Shown piece by piece: positions 20-5,832 of a DNA stretch of 10,999 bases (positions are counted from its first letter, which is position 1; each line of letters starts with the position of its first letter). Origin of the DNA: Candidatus Omnitrophota bacterium (GTDB lineage Bacteria > Omnitrophota > Koll11 > VGKN01); the NCBI GenBank assembly GCA_016867055.1, contig VGKN01000026.1, forward strand, positions 1-10,999. Direction: 5' to 3'. Both the position numbers and the translations under genes were made by a program. The notes under the pieces were generated by a model. That model saw only the letters and a list, made by a program, of their open reading frames with translations, made no database searches and was not told the origin of the DNA.

Positions 20-487
20 ATGGAGATTAAATTTACCAAAGAGCAATATGATAGCTTGATTAAACTAGTTTATCTGGGCAACTGGATGATTAACTCAATA
101 CGAGACGACGGCAAAGAGATTAAGAAGTACAATGATGTTGAGCAATACATCTATTCATTCGCTAAAGAGTTTGGCCTTGATAGTCTAGTTGAATACGATA
201 CACAGATGAAACGGTATTATCCGGCATGGGAACTTGATGATAACCCGGAAGTAGAACCTTACCGTCAGGATTATGAAAATGAGGTATTTTGGGATGAGCT
301 AACCAATAGATTAGCCAGACAGGATTTTGTCAGACACTATGGTGAAAAGACGATAAGGAAAATGGGCCAGAAAGAGCATTTTGAAAAATTGTATCCTTTT
401 ATTGAAAAATACGAAGAAGAATTCTATAAACATGGGATTGAGAGGCTTAGGATAAAGCAACAAATTGAAGATGAAAACGATTTATAG
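20..487 (+). CDS. Uncharacterised acidic protein leading the type III R-M operon
   Basis: I do not recognise this 155-residue protein. It has no signal peptide or membrane segment and looks soluble and cytoplasmic. It is rich in charged and aromatic residues; my hand count gives about 35 Asp/Glu against 24 Lys/Arg, a net charge near -11. Much of it, especially the C-terminal third (residues about 105-155), looks helical. Its end overlaps the start of the methyltransferase gene by 17 bases, so the two are probably co-transcribed and translationally coupled. That makes it a likely accessory part of the restriction-modification system. An acidic protein in such a place could bind a DNA-binding partner or mimic DNA, but this is only inference. 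The ATG at 20 is preferred because of the G-rich ribosome binding site upstream. No upstream gene is visible, so the operon may begin before the window. Confidence 0.8.
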   Translation: MEIKFTKEQYDSLIKLVYLGNWMINSIRDDGKEIKKYNDVEQYIYSFAKEFGLDSLVEYDTQMKRYYPAWELDDNPEVEPYRQDYENEVFWDELTNRLARQDFVRHYGEKTIRKMGQKEHFEKLYPFIEKYEEEFYKHGIERLRIKQQIEDENDL

Positions 488-2228
488 CTTGCCAAAAGAA
501 AGATTTAAGGCCCATAAAACAAAAAGCAGTTTTACGGTGGAGAAATCTGCTAAAAAATCATATCAAAATTGGTCCAAGGGCGAGCTAATTAAAGAAATTG
601 AGCGATTGAAGAAACGCAAAAAGTATGGTTTAGTCTGGGAAGATAAACCAGAAGAAGTAGTAGAAATGTGTAAAAATAAGTTACCAGTGGTTAAAGAGAT
701 AAAAAATAAACAAATAATCACTAACAAAAACAAAGCAGTAAATTTATTAATAGATGGAGATAATTATAATTCGCTCTCTGTATTGAATTATACCCATGCA
801 GGTAAAGTTGATGTTATCTATATCGATCCACCATATAATACGGGCAATAAAGATTTTAAATATAATGATAGGTATGTAGATTTGGAAGATGGCTATAGAC
901 ATAGTAAATGGCTTTCTTTTATGGAAAAAAGATTGAAACTGGCGAAGAATTTATTAAAAGATGCAGGAGTAATTTTTATTTCAATCGATGATAATGAAAT
1001 GGCCCAGTTGAAAATATTAATGGATAATCCTGATTTATTTGGAGAGAATAATTTTATATCTAATATAATATGGCGAAAAAAAAGAGGATATGGTCGAGGG
1101 GATAATTTAGTAATTCCTCAAACAGAATATATATTACTATATGCGAAGGATAGAAATAAATTATCTTTTTTTGAATTGCCAATATCAGAACGTAAATTAA
1201 AGGACTATAAATATAAAGATAGCTTGGGCCTTTATAAAAGAGAGACATTAGAACATCATACCCCATACGGTGGCTATGTACGGAAGACATTACAATATGA
1301 TTTAATAATTAGCGGCAAGAAGATATTTTGTACTACAGGTCAGTGGTTATGGAGCAAAGAAAGAGTAGAAAGAGAGTTAAAAGATATTATTGGTAAGAAT
1401 AGAAATGGTAAAGAATACAAATATCTAGATATCATTAAAGATAGTAAAGGAAGACAGAGAGCATATAAAAAGATTCGTTTGGAAGAAAATGGTGAAGTAA
1501 GGGGAGAAAGACCCCTTTCAATTATAGATGATTCGGAAATAACAACTAATAGCGCTGCTCATGAAATTAGAAATTTATTTGCTAATAGAGCCTTTGATTT
1601 TTCGAAACCAAGAAGTTTGATAAAACTCTTATTGAAGTTTTCGAGCTCTAAGAATTCGATAATTCTTGATTTTATGGCTGGAACAGGTACAACAGGCCAG
1701 GCAGTTATGGAACTTAATAAAGAAGATGGCGGTAACCGTCAATTTATTCTTTGTACCAATAATGAAAACAACATCTGTACTGATGTTTGTTATCCACGAA
1801 TTAAAAAAGTTATTGAGGGATACAGAAACTTAAAGGGTGAAAAGGTAGAAGGCTTAGGCGGTAACCTAAAATACTTCAAAACTGATTTTGTTGATTATAA
1901 TGAGCCTACTGATAAGAACAAAAAGAAATTGACTGACGAAGCAACTGAGATGCTTTGTATTAAGGAAGGAACCTTTGAAGAAGTTTTAGATAAAAAAGAT
2001 TTTAAAATTTTCAAGAATAACAGTCACTATACCGGCATAATTTTTGACCAATTGGCAATTCCAGAATTTAAAAAAGAAATTAAGAATATCAAAGGCAAAT
2101 TTAGCGTCTATGTTTTTTCTTTAAGTGACGAAACTTTTGATGAAGAATTTACTGATGTTAAACAAAAAATTAAATTATCTCCCATCCCCGAAGCAATTTT
2201 GAGAGTGTATAGAAGGATATTTAAATAG
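471..2228 (+). CDS. mod: Type III restriction-modification DNA adenine methyltransferase (Mod)
   Basis: This is the modification subunit of a type III R-M system. It would transfer a methyl group from S-adenosylmethionine to N6 of adenine on one strand of an asymmetric site, and it also supplies sequence recognition to the Res complex. Numbering from the ATG at 471 (585 residues), the catalytic DPPY motif is at about 119-122 in the context IYIDPPYNTG. The AdoMet-binding motif I is at about 400-409 (DFMAGTGTTG). This order, motif IV before motif I, marks the beta class. The variable stretch between them (about 190-390) should be the target recognition domain. Next come the GGNRQF and NENNICTDVCYPRIKKVIEGY blocks typical of type III Mod proteins. 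The length is normal and both motifs are intact, so it should be active. A TTG at 465 is an alternative start. The gene overlaps the preceding one and ends nine bases before the RhuM-Fic gene. No tandem repeat suggesting phase variation was seen. Confidence 0.95.
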   Translation: MKTIYSLPKERFKAHKTKSSFTVEKSAKKSYQNWSKGELIKEIERLKKRKKYGLVWEDKPEEVVEMCKNKLPVVKEIKNKQIITNKNKAVNLLIDGDNYNSLSVLNYTHAGKVDVIYIDPPYNTGNKDFKYNDRYVDLEDGYRHSKWLSFMEKRLKLAKNLLKDAGVIFISIDDNEMAQLKILMDNPDLFGENNFISNIIWRKKRGYGRGDNLVIPQTEYILLYAKDRNKLSFFELPISERKLKDYKYKDSLGLYKRETLEHHTPYGGYVRKTLQYDLIISGKKIFCTTGQWLWSKERVERELKDIIGKNRNGKEYKYLDIIKDSKGRQRAYKKIRLEENGEVRGERPLSIIDDSEITTNSAAHEIRNLFANRAFDFSKPRSLIKLLLKFSSSKNSIILDFMAGTGTTGQAVMELNKEDGGNRQFILCTNNENNICTDVCYPRIKKVIEGYRNLKGEKVEGLGGNLKYFKTDFVDYNEPTDKNKKKLTDEATEMLCIKEGTFEEVLDKKDFKIFKNNSHYTGIIFDQLAIPEFKKEIKNIKGKFSVYVFSLSDETFDEEFTDVKQKIKLSPIPEAILRVYRRIFK

Positions 2229-2231
2229 GAG
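2227..2231 (+). promoter_or_regulatory. Ribosome binding site supporting a GTG start
   Basis: AGGAG overlaps the stop codon of mod and lies six bases before the GTG at 2238. It decides the GTG start of the RhuM-Fic gene and suggests that its translation is coupled to that of mod. Confidence 0.7.
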
Positions 2232-2237
2232 CTTTTC

Positions 2238-3260
2238 GTGAGTACAAATAAGTATAGAAAAGATATCAGCGGCAACATTCAGTCTAAGGGCGAAATTGTT
2301 ATTTATCGGGCTTCTGATAAGCGAATTCAACTCGAGGTAAGATTAAAAAAAGAGACAGTTTGGTTAGATGCACACCAAATAGCCTTACTTTTTGGCGTGA
2401 ATAGGCCCGCTATAGTCAAACATATCAATAATATCTACAAAACCGCTGAATTAAGCGAAAAATCAACCTGTTCCATTTTGGAACAGATTGCAGCTGATGG
2501 AAAAATAAGAAAAATGAATCTTTATAATCTGGATATGATTATTTCTGTTGGTTACCGAGTTAATTCAAAACTGGCAACCCAATTCAGAATTTGGGCAACC
2601 CGCACTTTGAAAGAGCATATTGTTAAAGGATATACCATAAATGAAAAGAGGCTGTTAAAAGAAACGGCTAAATTTAAAGATCTGCAGAAAACTATCAGTT
2701 TTCTGCAGGAAAAATCTCAACACAAACTTTTAGAGGACCAGACACGGGAAATTTTGAATCTTTTAAGTGAATATGCTAAGTCGCTTTCATTATTAGGGCA
2801 ATATGATGCAGATAAATTAATGCTTATTAAAGGAAAAAGGGCGGCTTTTATCTTGACATATGAAAACTGCTCAGGAATAATTCTTAATATTAGAAATGAG
2901 CTTATCAGCAGGAAACAGGTCAGCGAGCTTTTTGGACAAGAGGTAAATAAAAAGCTTGAAAGCACTATTAAAACTTTATATCAAACCTTTGGCGGTAACG
3001 AGCTTTATGAGAGCATAGAAGAGAAATCCGCAAATTTACTTTATCTGATTATTAAGGACCATCCATTCGTAGATGGAAACAAAAGAATCGCTTGTCTTTT
3101 ATTCATTTACTTTTTAGAAAGGAATCGCTATTTATATAAACCTAATGCCGAAAGAAAGATTAATGATAATGCTCTCGTAGCCTTAAGTTTACTTATTGCA
3201 ATAAGTAGGCCCGAAGAAAAAGATGTAATGATTAAGATTATTACGAATTTGTTAAAATGA
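2238..3260 (+). CDS. RhuM-Fic/Doc fusion protein inside the type III R-M operon
   Basis: This 340-residue protein joins an N-terminal RhuM domain (about 20-135) to a C-terminal Fic/Doc domain (about 200-340). The RhuM part shows the family pattern: a helix-turn-helix-like stretch (WLDAHQIALLFGVNRPAIVKH) and the block NLDMIISVGYRVNSKLATQFRIWA. The Fic core motif HPFVDGNKR is at 275-283, with the catalytic His at 275. Fic enzymes usually move AMP from ATP onto target hydroxyls (motif HxFx(D/E)GNGRxxR), whereas Doc phosphorylates EF-Tu. Here Lys replaces the second Gly and Cys sits where AMPylators have the final Arg, which is closer to Doc. The chemistry is therefore uncertain. No clear (S/T)xxxE(G/N) self-inhibitory motif was found. 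The start is a GTG with a good ribosome binding site. The stop overlaps the start of res by four bases (ATGA), placing this protein firmly within the R-M operon. RhuM was named as a virulence protein of unknown mechanism. Confidence 0.92.
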   Translation: MSTNKYRKDISGNIQSKGEIVIYRASDKRIQLEVRLKKETVWLDAHQIALLFGVNRPAIVKHINNIYKTAELSEKSTCSILEQIAADGKIRKMNLYNLDMIISVGYRVNSKLATQFRIWATRTLKEHIVKGYTINEKRLLKETAKFKDLQKTISFLQEKSQHKLLEDQTREILNLLSEYAKSLSLLGQYDADKLMLIKGKRAAFILTYENCSGIILNIRNELISRKQVSELFGQEVNKKLESTIKTLYQTFGGNELYESIEEKSANLLYLIIKDHPFVDGNKRIACLLFIYFLERNRYLYKPNAERKINDNALVALSLLIAISRPEEKDVMIKIITNLLK

Positions 3261-5536
3261 CCATGCAACTTAAAATTTATCAAGAAAACGCCATAGAGGA
3301 ATTATTAGAGAAATCCAAAAAACTCTTGGCTTATCCTGACAGTAAGAAATTAGTTTTTAAATCACCGACAGCATCGGGAAAAACGATTATGATGGCACAG
3401 TTTTTGAAGCAATTAGCTGAGGATAGACCTGCCCGCCGACCTGCCTACCGAAGTCTTGGCGTAGGCAGGAGCCTCGGCGCAGGCGGGGAAATAAAGCAAT
3501 CGATTTCGTTTATCTGGACCGCGCCAAGGCAATTACATATCCAAAGCAGAAAAAAGTTAGAGAATTATTTTGAAGAAAGTAGAGCTCTAAAATGTTCATT
3601 CTTTGAGGATTTGGATGATAGAAAAATTGATGAGAATGAGGTTCTATTTTTTAACTGGGAAAGTATAAATAGAGCGGATAATATCTATATTCGCGATAAT
3701 GAACAGGACTTTAACTTATCTACTGTGCTTGAAGGAACAAAAGAAGAAGGACGGCAGATAATCTTAGTAATTGATGAGGCACATCATCATGCCACAAGTG
3801 AAATTTCACAAGGCTTGATTCAAATGATTAAACCAAAATTAACCATAGAGGTTTCGGCGACCCCGGTGATTGCAAGCCCTGATGAAATGGTGAACGTGCC
3901 GTTAGAAGATGTAAAGCAAGAGGGAATGGTTAAGAAAACAGTTGTCTTAAACGAAAAATTTATCAATCTGTTAAAAAATGAAAGAATTAATTCCCAGTTA
4001 AGTAAAGGAAGCGAAGAGTTAGTTATTGATGCATCGTTAAAGAAGAGAAAGGAGTTATTGCATGCATTTAAAAAAGTAAAGGTAAATATAAATCCCTTAG
4101 TTTTGATTCAATTACCAGATAGGATTGGCCAATTAGAAGATACAATGAAGGATAGAGTGGTTAGAATTTTAAAAGACAAATACAATATTTCATCAGAAAA
4201 TGGAAAATTGGCTATCTGGCTTTCAGGAGAGCATATCAACAAAGAAGACGTTGAAAAAAATGATAGTGAGGTTGAAGTTTTAATTTTCAAACAAGCGATT
4301 GCTTTAGGCTGGGATTGTCCACGAGCACAGATTTTAACTCTATTTAGAGAGTGGCATAGTCCAATATTTTCTATTCAGACTGTGGGAAGAATTATGCGCA
4401 TGCCTGAACCCGAGAAAGGTCATTATGAAAATGACATTCTGAACTACGGATATGTATATACTAATTTGAGCGATATAGAGATTGAGAAAGATATTGCCCG
4501 TGGATATATTACTATTTATACAAGCAAGAGAAGAGCATACTATAAACCAATCAATCTATCATCTTGCTATTCAAAAAGACATCGCGAAAAGACAAGATTA
4601 TCACCCTTATTTATTGAGATGTTCTTAAAAGTTGCAAAAAGTTATGGATTAAAAAAGAAAATTGATAAGAAGGCGAAAAAGTTAGATATAAAAGTTTTCA
4701 ATGACTGGAAGGCAGAGAATATAGACATATTAGCTGGAAAGATAATTTCTGGTGATAAAGCAATTACTGTAAGTGGCTTTGATTTGCAGCGTTTATTTGA
4801 TTACTTTGCCCGGCAAAACTTAACTCCTTTTTATCCGGAAGACAGGTCAGTGGGCCGCGTAAAAGAATCTACTTATAAATTTTTTGAATTAGAATTTAAA
4901 ATGAAGCGCGGAGAAGGAGAAGACGAAGCAATTAAAATTACTTTGAGCGATAAGAATACCCAGCATTTTAAAAATGTTATTGATAAAGCGAAAGAGGAAT
5001 ATCAAAAGGAAGTGATAAAACGTGAACCCGAGCTCATTTTTGTTAAGGACTGGAATGTACCAGAATTTATAAGATACAATGAAAACTATACTCGGGTTGA
5101 CTATGAAAAATCCATTATGGAACCATTTTATAGCGATAAGAGATGGAAAAGCGAAGAAGCATTTATAGAATTTTTGGAGAGAGAGGATAAAGTTGAAAGG
5201 TGGTTTAAAAATGGCGATAGGGACAGGACATTTTTTGCTGTGTCTTATGATAATGGCGAACAAAAGCCATTTTATGTTGACTTTATTGTTAAATTGAAAG
5301 ATGGACGAATTGGATTATTTGATTCTCATGGAGTCCATTTGAGCGATTTTAAGGCTAAATCGGATGGGTTGTTAAATTACCTTGGAGATGAAAATAAGAA
5401 AGGGAAAAAGCTTTTTGGAGGAATAGTTATCAATACCGACCAAAAAGATTATAAGGGAAGATGGATTTATTTTAATAAACCAAGCAAAGAATTAAAATAT
5501 AACAACTTTGATAATTGGGTGGATTTGGAGCTATAG
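3257..5536 (+). CDS. res: Type III restriction subunit Res: SF2 helicase with (altered) nuclease domain
   Basis: This 759-residue protein is the ATP-dependent restriction subunit that acts with Mod on unmethylated DNA. Superfamily 2 helicase motifs are clear: Walker A TASGKT at 38-43, DEAH at 173-176, SATP at 200-203, and motif VI QTVGRIMRMP at 374-383 with Arg 378 and 381. The C-terminal region (about 600-750) aligns by eye with the PD-(D/E)xK nuclease of Res proteins, including a GGIVI strand near the end. However, the core reads V-D675-F...F-D689-S-H691, where relatives I recall have PDF...D/E-T-K, so the catalytic Lys appears to be His. Residues 57-77 (rich in Arg, Pro, Gly and Ala) come from a GC-rich palindromic repeat inserted in frame after Walker A. 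The start codon overlaps the fic stop, implying coupling. At 759 residues it is shorter than the 970-residue EcoP1/EcoP15 Res. Helicase identity is sure; cutting activity is doubtful. Confidence 0.94.
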   Translation: MTMQLKIYQENAIEELLEKSKKLLAYPDSKKLVFKSPTASGKTIMMAQFLKQLAEDRPARRPAYRSLGVGRSLGAGGEIKQSISFIWTAPRQLHIQSRKKLENYFEESRALKCSFFEDLDDRKIDENEVLFFNWESINRADNIYIRDNEQDFNLSTVLEGTKEEGRQIILVIDEAHHHATSEISQGLIQMIKPKLTIEVSATPVIASPDEMVNVPLEDVKQEGMVKKTVVLNEKFINLLKNERINSQLSKGSEELVIDASLKKRKELLHAFKKVKVNINPLVLIQLPDRIGQLEDTMKDRVVRILKDKYNISSENGKLAIWLSGEHINKEDVEKNDSEVEVLIFKQAIALGWDCPRAQILTLFREWHSPIFSIQTVGRIMRMPEPEKGHYENDILNYGYVYTNLSDIEIEKDIARGYITIYTSKRRAYYKPINLSSCYSKRHREKTRLSPLFIEMFLKVAKSYGLKKKIDKKAKKLDIKVFNDWKAENIDILAGKIISGDKAITVSGFDLQRLFDYFARQNLTPFYPEDRSVGRVKESTYKFFELEFKMKRGEGEDEAIKITLSDKNTQHFKNVIDKAKEEYQKEVIKREPELIFVKDWNVPEFIRYNENYTRVDYEKSIMEPFYSDKRWKSEEAFIEFLEREDKVERWFKNGDRDRTFFAVSYDNGEQKPFYVDFIVKLKDGRIGLFDSHGVHLSDFKAKSDGLLNYLGDENKKGKKLFGGIVINTDQKDYKGRWIYFNKPSKELKYNNFDNWVDLEL
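3428..3488. repeat. GC-rich nested palindromic repeat inserted in frame in res
   Basis: This short GC-rich block sits in an otherwise AT-rich gene. The inner arms CCTGCCTAC (3440-3448) and GTAGGCAGG (3461-3469) are perfect 9-bp inverted repeats around a 12-base loop. Outer arms CCCGCC (3432-3437) and GGCGGG (3482-3487) also pair. It encodes about 21 residues (57-77 of Res) without breaking the frame. This resembles the protein-coding palindromic elements known from Rickettsia, although the sequence family is different. Confidence 0.8.
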
Positions 5537-5641
5537 AAAGGAATTATTAGAACAAGCTAAACAAAAGTGGAAATGATTATTGAAAAAGGTTATGGGTATA
5601 GTCTCAATTGTAATAGATTTTGAGCGAAAGATAATAATATT

Positions 5642-5655: not shown

Positions 5656-5832
5656 ATGGATAAGAAGATAAAGGTGATTGCGCTTATATTTGGTATTGTA
5701 TTAATTGGACATCTATTAAGATTTATTTTTAAGGTGCCGGTGGTAATAGGTAACTTCAGCGTGCCGTTATATTTTAGTTTGTTTCCCATTATATTTTTGA
5801 TTATTCTTATTGCATGGCTTATTAAGAAATAG
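5656..5832 (+). CDS. Small two-helix membrane protein, unknown function
   Basis: A 58-residue protein with no recognised family. It starts with MDKK, followed by a hydrophobic helix (about 6-25). A short polar or loop stretch (about 26-38: KVPVVIGNFSVPL) leads to a second hydrophobic helix (about 39-56), and the protein ends WLIKK. Lysines at both ends flanking two helices suggest a small inner-membrane hairpin with both termini in the cytoplasm. A strong GGGAGG ribosome binding site precedes the ATG, which supports expression. It lies alone, 119 bases after res and 129 bases before the nitroreductase, and its stop is followed almost at once by an inverted-repeat cluster. There is no basis for linking it firmly to either neighbour. 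It could be a small toxin-like or structural membrane peptide, but nothing proves this. Confidence 0.6.
   Translation: MDKKIKVIALIFGIVLIGHLLRFIFKVPVVIGNFSVPLYFSLFPIIFLIILIAWLIKK

Follow-up and report, generated by a model that had tools for sequence, protein, structure and literature searches.

Gene content and layout of the locus

We analyzed a stretch of 10,999 nucleotides (nt), hereafter the window, from contig VGKN01000026.1 of Candidatus Omnitrophota bacterium (assembly GCA_016867055.1), which contains a Type III restriction-modification (R-M) operon with a gene for a RhuM-Fic/Doc fusion protein (RhuM-Fic) located between the genes for the modification (Mod) and restriction (Res) subunits. 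Four open reading frames (ORFs), all on the plus strand, occupy positions 20-487, approximately 471-2228, 2238-3260 and 3257-5536, and encode a small acidic protein, Mod, RhuM-Fic and Res, respectively. The initial annotation of this DNA had described these genes as a four-part operon, and the ORFs along with the matches to Pfam and PADLOC profiles indicate that all four are real.

Mod (471..2228) is a Type III N6/N4 DNA methyltransferase (PF01555, E 2e-37; PADLOC MTase_III, E 2e-100), with structure-linked matches to Mbo45V (7dsu, E 3e-45) and the EcoP15I Mod (4zcf, E 5e-32); its motif order, with DPPY at residue 119 preceding the S-adenosylmethionine motif DFMAGTG at residue 400, fits the beta class. 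Res (3257..5536; PF04851, E 2e-18; PADLOC REase_III, E 6e-18) contains the motifs of a superfamily 2 helicase, namely, SPTASGKT (Walker A), DEAH, VSATP and QTVGRIMRMP, followed by a C-terminal PD-(D/E)XK motif in which the catalytic lysine is replaced by histidine. The Mod of the window belongs to the same family as those of the EcoP15I and Mbo45V systems, in which mod also precedes res, whereas the additional gene between mod and res and the lysine to histidine replacement in the active site of Res set the window apart.

The 340 amino acid (aa) RhuM-Fic protein (2238..3260) contains the PF13310 and PF02661 domains and matches the PADLOC profile PDC-S23 (PDLC04965) with E 2e-119 (residues 17-340 against profile positions 4-324 of 327). 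The PADLOC naming suggests that this profile originates in the 'guilt by embedding' preprint of Payne et al. 2024. The score of RhuM-Fic against the Doc family TIGR01550 (47.1) exceeds the curated cut-off of 38.65, and the Fic active-site motif HPFVDGNKR fits the HxFx(D/N)(G/A)N(K/G)R pattern, with a lysine that we take to be Doc-like; the form HxFxDGNKR is retained in 119 of the 120 relatives listed (three of these represent the same locus). There is no separate upstream gene for an antitoxin, as there would be in a Phd-Doc module; the gene directly upstream is mod.

The coupling of the four genes had been deduced from a 17-base overlap between the first gene and mod, a 9-base gap between mod and the RhuM-Fic gene, and an ATGA overlap between the latter and res. 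The 9-base gap holds, and the GTG start codon at position 2238 is preceded by AGGAG, a clear Shine-Dalgarno sequence of a kind found neither at the start of Mod (ATG 471 or GTG 537) nor at that of Res. The two overlaps are less firm. The first requires translation of Mod from ATG 471, whereas, when Mod is aligned with 21 others, its nearest relatives (L306, L307, L308, L309, L311 and L340) are seen to start just ahead of the YQNW position, by a few residues, which makes GTG 537, and hence a 49-base gap, more likely. The ATGA overlap requires ATG 3257; the Res relatives and the database copy P0237 begin at the MQLK/MRLK methionine, which corresponds to ATG 3263, the more likely start, and leaves a 2-base gap. 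On this start-site evidence, the close coupling of mod, the RhuM-Fic gene and res stands, whereas that of the first gene with mod does not rest on an overlap. Identical copies of RhuM-Fic (P0118) and of Res (P0237) are each recorded on an 11,260-base contig, so that this part of the operon is not an assembly artefact of the window contig.

Contexts of Mod-Res pairs, RhuM-Fic and the first-gene family

We searched for relatives of Res in 896 genomes from five groups, the phyla of Omnitrophota (384 genomes), Elusimicrobia (159), Thermodesulfovibrionales (158), Syntrophus (99) and Parcubacteria (96), and obtained matches with E <= 0.001 in 23, 25, 22, 5 and 9 genomes, respectively. Longer stretches were read for 62 matches (those set aside were mainly the weaker ones, together with some from very short contigs), and in 57 of these, a recognizable Mod is encoded upstream on the same strand; three of these pairs (L266, L311 and L363) come from one genome. 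With cargo defined as one or more ORFs of no less than 150 aa, on the same strand, in a mod-res gap of no less than 400 nt, 16 of the 57 Mod-Res pairs carry cargo and 41 do not; among the 11 closest pairs (Res at least 44% identical), cargo is present in four. In most of the cargo-free pairs, the two genes lie within about 130 nt of each other; the gaps in L364-L366 and L375 measure 188-269 nt, and in L352, the end of Mod is broken. The extra ORF in L352 was considered as cargo and rejected as it looks like the C-terminus of the broken Mod.

The cargo differs between loci. The junction in L306, where Mod and Res are, respectively, 61% and 66% identical to those of the window, is occupied (4111-5561) by a cyclase of a cyclic oligonucleotide-based antiphage signaling system (CBASS; nucleotidyltransferase, E 1e-110) together with Cap15 (E 2e-36). 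DUF3800 proteins are encoded in the junctions of L307, L356, L357 (along with a second ORF) and L360; of the two such loci searched with PADLOC, one, L356, yielded a match of the cargo (PDC-M04A). SLFN_AlbA_2 proteins were identified in L340, next to an unknown protein, and in L345, with an ATPase-like domain. The other recognizable occupants include an unknown protein with a DUF1828 protein (PDC-M24B) in L346, HEPN_AbiU2 (E 8e-7) in L359, a helix-turn-helix/M78 protein with DUF4411/PIN in L363, a set of five ORFs in L367, with an SMC-like ATPase and a DUF1016/YhcG nuclease among the products, and ORF6N (PADLOC PDC-S05) in L369. The cargo genes are often spaced by only a few bases (3, -7 and -10 nt in L306; 4, 2 and 2 nt in L340).

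None of the 57 pairs encodes RhuM-Fic between Mod and Res, and none of the 54 loci of the first-gene family discussed below has a Type III Mod or Res gene in the DNA available. Thus, the four-part set is not conserved: in the relatives, the Mod-Res pair occurs without RhuM-Fic, in the 41 cargo-free pairs as well as in the 16 pairs with other cargo, an outcome of the kind that the initial annotation had named as grounds for refuting its proposal. A second, independent Mod/RhuM-Fic/Res operon, from Nitrospirota (L301), was found through the RhuM-Fic search and kept out of the 57-pair count; it is divergent, with Mod and Res 31% and 24% identical, respectively, to those of the window.

RhuM-Fic itself is far from confined to such operons. 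Matches with E <= 0.001, partial ones included, were detected in 150 of the 384, 67 of the 159 and 72 of the 158 genomes of three of the groups, and the neighbors were examined for 78 of the better matches. Eight of these 78 loci lie within R-M operons (for the three groups, 1 of 46, 0 of 15 and 7 of 17, respectively): seven of Type I (L138, L302, L303, L304, L314, L315 and L319) and the Type III case L301. A search for adjoining R-M genes, in which BLAST queries (HsdM, HsdS, HsdR, Mod and Res) were combined with two motifs sought up to four ORFs away, came up empty for 68 of the 78 loci, including five (L123, L144, L145, L150 and L321) where the motif flag alone was raised and none was classed as R-M from the protein starts. 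Two close calls were left uncounted: in L300 (5-9736), RhuM-Fic has an AAA_13 gene (PDC-S06) on one side and a pair of genes for a PLD/SNF2-helicase and an Eco57I-type methylase on the other, and in L293, it is encoded three ORFs upstream of an HsdM-like gene. In L303 (174-9880), RhuM-Fic and an AAA_13 protein (PDC-S06, with a weaker PrrC match) share a Type I R-M operon, and both L303 and L300 closely resemble the multilevel arrangement put forward in 2013 (PMC3710099).

In a tree of 79 RhuM-Fic proteins, the nine embedded ones, including that of the window, require 7 changes compared to the mean of 8.7 for shuffled labels; with L300 and L293 added, the values are 9 and 10.5, and 39 of 500 shuffles reach 9 changes or fewer. 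From these counts, the embedding of RhuM-Fic is a repeated event with mild clustering. The sister of the window protein, L286, is encoded directly downstream of gatB, and L300 belongs to the wider branch around the two. In L286 and L287, both from the Elusimicrobia group, RhuM-Fic lies 3' of gatB, in L287 with one ORF in between, possibly a fixed insertion site.

Among plasmids, 117 records match RhuM-Fic, 13 of them over at least 80% of the query. The annotation of a Methylophaga plasmid shows the order HsdM-HsdS-RhuM-Fic-HsdR, and for six other plasmid records with RhuM-Fic, no adjoining R-M genes are listed in the gene table, which is incomplete. In viral contigs, no RhuM-Fic was confirmed with one protein as the query, a search that would recover just its close relatives.

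The first gene (20..487) encodes a protein of 155 aa that is acidic, as the initial annotation had noted (35 D+E vs 24 K+R), is predicted to be mostly helical and belongs to no known family: it has no Pfam or PADLOC match, and with NCBIfam, there is only a sub-threshold hit to an unrelated model (E 0.086). The fold modeled with AlphaFold2 is helical and locally confident (predicted local distance difference test score, pLDDT, 90.7; predicted template modeling score 0.65), and a comparison with PDB structures gave no match at E <= 0.001, DNA-binding folds included. The window starts just 19 bases upstream of this gene, and the label of a leader gene attached to it earlier is not established.

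The search recovered 116 homologous proteins of this family, and 54 loci in species genomes; the contigs often end before the 10 kb flank, and the counts apply to the DNA available. Six of the 54 loci (L011, L014, L015, L016, L021 and L024), a count without a chance baseline, are inside Type I R-M operons of five genomes (L021 and L024 share an assembly prefix), mostly Patescibacteria, where the homolog lies 3' of HsdM and, wherever the contig reaches that far, 5' of HsdR. The notion that the first gene is unrelated to R-M was dropped once the Type I queries revealed these six loci. The same operons often carry further accessory ORFs, for example, Bro-N-like, and the first-gene copy in L014 ends in a SEC-C motif. 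Considering the 35 loci with listed neighbors, most of the rest appear to have ordinary chromosomal surroundings. In L007 (9038-11433), the homolog is flanked by genes for a Fic protein and a zeta toxin, and a weak match to HsdM, left uncounted, lies at a distance of about 5.5 kb; in L007 and L011, a RhuM-Fic match lies about 6 kb from the first-gene homolog. Few of the Omnitrophota genomes (4 of 384) encode a member of the family, and none was confirmed in viral contigs. Judging from these contexts, the first gene appears to behave like RhuM-Fic, mostly standing alone and sometimes lodged in R-M operons, and in the window, it is probably a further, looser accessory.

Possible roles of the embedded genes

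On balance, we lean towards the view that the mod/res junction is an exchangeable insertion slot for accessory, often defense-like genes and that RhuM-Fic is one such cargo, acting as an autonomous layer. RhuM-Fic is embedded in the operon and tightly spaced, so that its co-expression with Mod and Res is likely; this part of the original proposal, that the Fic enzyme is made in step with Mod and Res, is also supported by L301, whereas the four-part unit in which it was framed is not supported. The predominance of free-standing copies argues that RhuM-Fic does not need Mod and Res. Going by sequence and genome context, the protein probably acts autonomously, as a second layer with the same expression and mobility as the R-M operon.

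The tight spacing, the Shine-Dalgarno sequence of its own and the start of Res right behind its stop codon suggest that a single message probably serves for the translation of Mod, RhuM-Fic and Res. We envisage a self-regulated enzyme in which the RhuM part would keep the Doc-like Fic domain quiet and would sense infection; the Fic domain might then modify a host or phage protein by transfer of a nucleoside monophosphate or a phosphate, and this modification could stop growth or phage production. Under this scenario, RhuM-Fic would be a second line of defense behind restriction, which shares expression and horizontal transfer with the R-M system rather than being a required subunit. If the slot is real, reading the gene between Mod and Res would be a cheap route to new defense effectors in uncultured phyla, and it could be tested whether such effectors work independently, as second layers, or are coupled to the restriction enzyme.

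That RhuM and Fic occur near R-M genes, as stated in the initial annotation, was already known: RhuM-DOC fusions encoded near R-M and PrrC-like genes have been proposed to be protein-modifying toxins that provide a further level in multilevel defense (Anantharaman et al. 2013, PMC3710099). This is the same fusion, also encoded with R-M genes, but the accessible part of that paper mentions no slot in Type III Mod/Res operons, and the PrrC-like partners reported there were not found in the window. The embedding of defense genes in other systems is a recognized search principle (PMC12255303, PMC11411939 and PMC12988326), and like the candidates found in this way, RhuM-Fic is a defense-type gene inside the operon of another defense system, an arrangement that recurs in relatives. 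DarTG2 or TgvAB in Type I R-M operons (PMC12255303 and PMC11411939) likewise represent separate embedded defense modules but, unlike the window, involve Type I hosts and other effectors. In the open-access literature, we found no paper on a cargo slot in Type III mod/res loci and none on PDC-S23 or on the combination of RhuM, Fic and Type III restriction. Thus, the pairing of RhuM-Fic with R-M has been known since 2013, and the Type III Mod-Res cargo slot is a useful generalization.

Several observations weigh against an exchangeable slot with an autonomous RhuM-Fic. The cargo rate comes without a baseline from other operon pairs, and not all cargo is defense-like: L311 carries a Y1 transposase, a non-defensive gene, the cargo in L168 and L355 has no convincing match, and L373, with a weak two-transmembrane match and opposite-strand ORFs in the gap, is the weakest case. 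The link between RhuM-Fic and Type III systems comes from two loci, the window and L301. The embedded RhuM-Fic proteins cluster slightly in the tree (7 or fewer changes in 19 of 500 shuffles), and the helicase/methylase cluster in L300, with its PrrC-like AAA_13 protein and its position near the branch of the window, leans to a functional tie. Furthermore, stop codons are present in some of the RhuM-Fic matches, a feature likewise compatible with a selfish element, and the AlphaFold model of RhuM-Fic is poor (pLDDT 51) and unusable for checking self-inhibition.

A functional tie of this kind is the essence of the PrrC-like fail-safe, in which Mod and Res would hold RhuM-Fic inactive until inhibition of Res by a phage anti-restriction protein frees it and Fic halts growth. 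The tight embedding of RhuM-Fic between Mod and Res is compatible with this scheme, as are the precedent of PrrC in a Type IC R-M locus and the multilevel defense proposed for RhuM-DOC near R-M and PrrC-like genes (PMC12707154 and PMC3710099 for the former, PMC3710099 for the latter) along with the joint presence of RhuM-Fic and AAA_13 in the Type I operon of L303 and the L300 cluster. In the EcoPrrI locus, PrrC is likewise a growth-stopping effector embedded in an R-M operon, but it is a different enzyme, of a Type I system, and is held by the R-M complex, whereas RhuM-Fic usually stands alone. With so many copies of RhuM-Fic standing alone, a dedicated interface with R-M becomes less likely, those linked to R-M are not confined to a single clade, and the partners of RhuM-Fic in L301 are very different from those in the window, so that we consider the fail-safe unlikely, even if it is conceivable where RhuM-Fic is embedded. 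An addiction module, that is, a selfish one-chain toxin-antitoxin that stabilizes its operon or mobile DNA, could account for the match to the Doc family above the cut-off and for the presence of RhuM-Fic on plasmids and in many genomes; nevertheless, there is no separate antitoxin-like gene beside RhuM-Fic in the window, and in the relatives, the slot is occupied by a complete CBASS pair and by other genes unrelated to addiction, which leaves this explanation about as unlikely as the fail-safe. Post-translational modification of Mod or Res by RhuM-Fic, which would tune restriction, is suggested by adjacency and appears very improbable, given that RhuM-Fic is mostly stand-alone and elsewhere has unrelated enzymes, of both Type I and Type III, as neighbors.

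The first gene could be a dedicated regulator of the operon or an antitoxin, given its position directly upstream of Mod, similar to that of RptR upstream of a Type I operon (PMC12255303), the six homologs in Type I R-M operons and the L007 homolog with its Fic and zeta-toxin neighbors. However, the other 48 of the 54 loci have no R-M operon in the DNA available, a Type III partner is found in none, there is no match to a DNA-binding fold, and in the Type I operons, the gene is internal rather than first. We therefore regard a regulatory role as improbable and favor the looser accessory role for this gene.

The active-site cassette of Res and further features

The C-terminal nuclease motif of Res reads D675...D689-S-H691, with H691 in place of the catalytic lysine. 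The 120 Res relatives listed (P0237-P0356) all retain D675 and D689, and nearly all retain the Walker A, DEAH, SATP and GRxxR-type helicase motifs, whereas position 691 is lysine in 99 and histidine in 21 (one of the latter is the same locus). The histidine belongs to a linked block, typically D-(P/T/S)-H-G-x-H-L-S-D, compared to the typical D-T-K-A-G-(I/F)-T of the lysine form; in the window, this cassette, in the DxH form, spans positions 5321..5362 (residues 689-702), and the distant Res in L376 is also of the H form, reading DPHGHH. In trees without support values, the K/H state requires 12 changes on the helicase region (residues 1-600) and 13 to 15 on the nuclease region without the block; with the block included, the nuclease-region tree requires 2 changes, a value that is partly circular. 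The former counts suggest numerous switches of the cassette, about 14 residues long, among proteins that share 70-82% identity with the Res of the window.

A connection between the DxH form and cargo was considered and is not supported: the H form occurs with cargo in the window and L340 and without it in the distant L376, and Res proteins of the K form coexist with cargo in L306 and L307, with too few loci overall to tell. An extension of this idea, in which the Mod and Res of these phyla would form a docking platform, that is, a sensor of unmodified DNA that drives an exchangeable effector, with the DxK/DxH toggle shifting cleavage to the effector, strikes us as quite improbable. Under such a model, the effectors would be Fic in the window, the CBASS pair in L306, and DUF3800, AbiU2-like or Schlafen-like proteins elsewhere, with DxK being the cutting form and DxH a non-cutting or differently cutting form. 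A two-state cassette in the active site of Res would be relevant to the question of how, in restriction enzymes, other outcomes come to replace DNA cleavage.

The res gene also contains, in frame, a GC-rich palindrome (3428..3487) that adds 20 residues, which are absent from the 13 other relatives displayed. This sequence, with a DNA hairpin z-score of -3.7, resembles a mobile repeat; exact 30-base and 22-base patterns detected no copies of it in 379 loci or in viral contigs. Downstream of Res, a 58-aa hydrophobic ORF without a Pfam match (5656-5832) precedes the genes for a nitroreductase, a YggU-family protein and a V-type ATPase. Among plasmids, the best match to Res has about 34% identity over half the length, and on an E. 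faecium plasmid, the genes for Mod and Res overlap by 4 bases.

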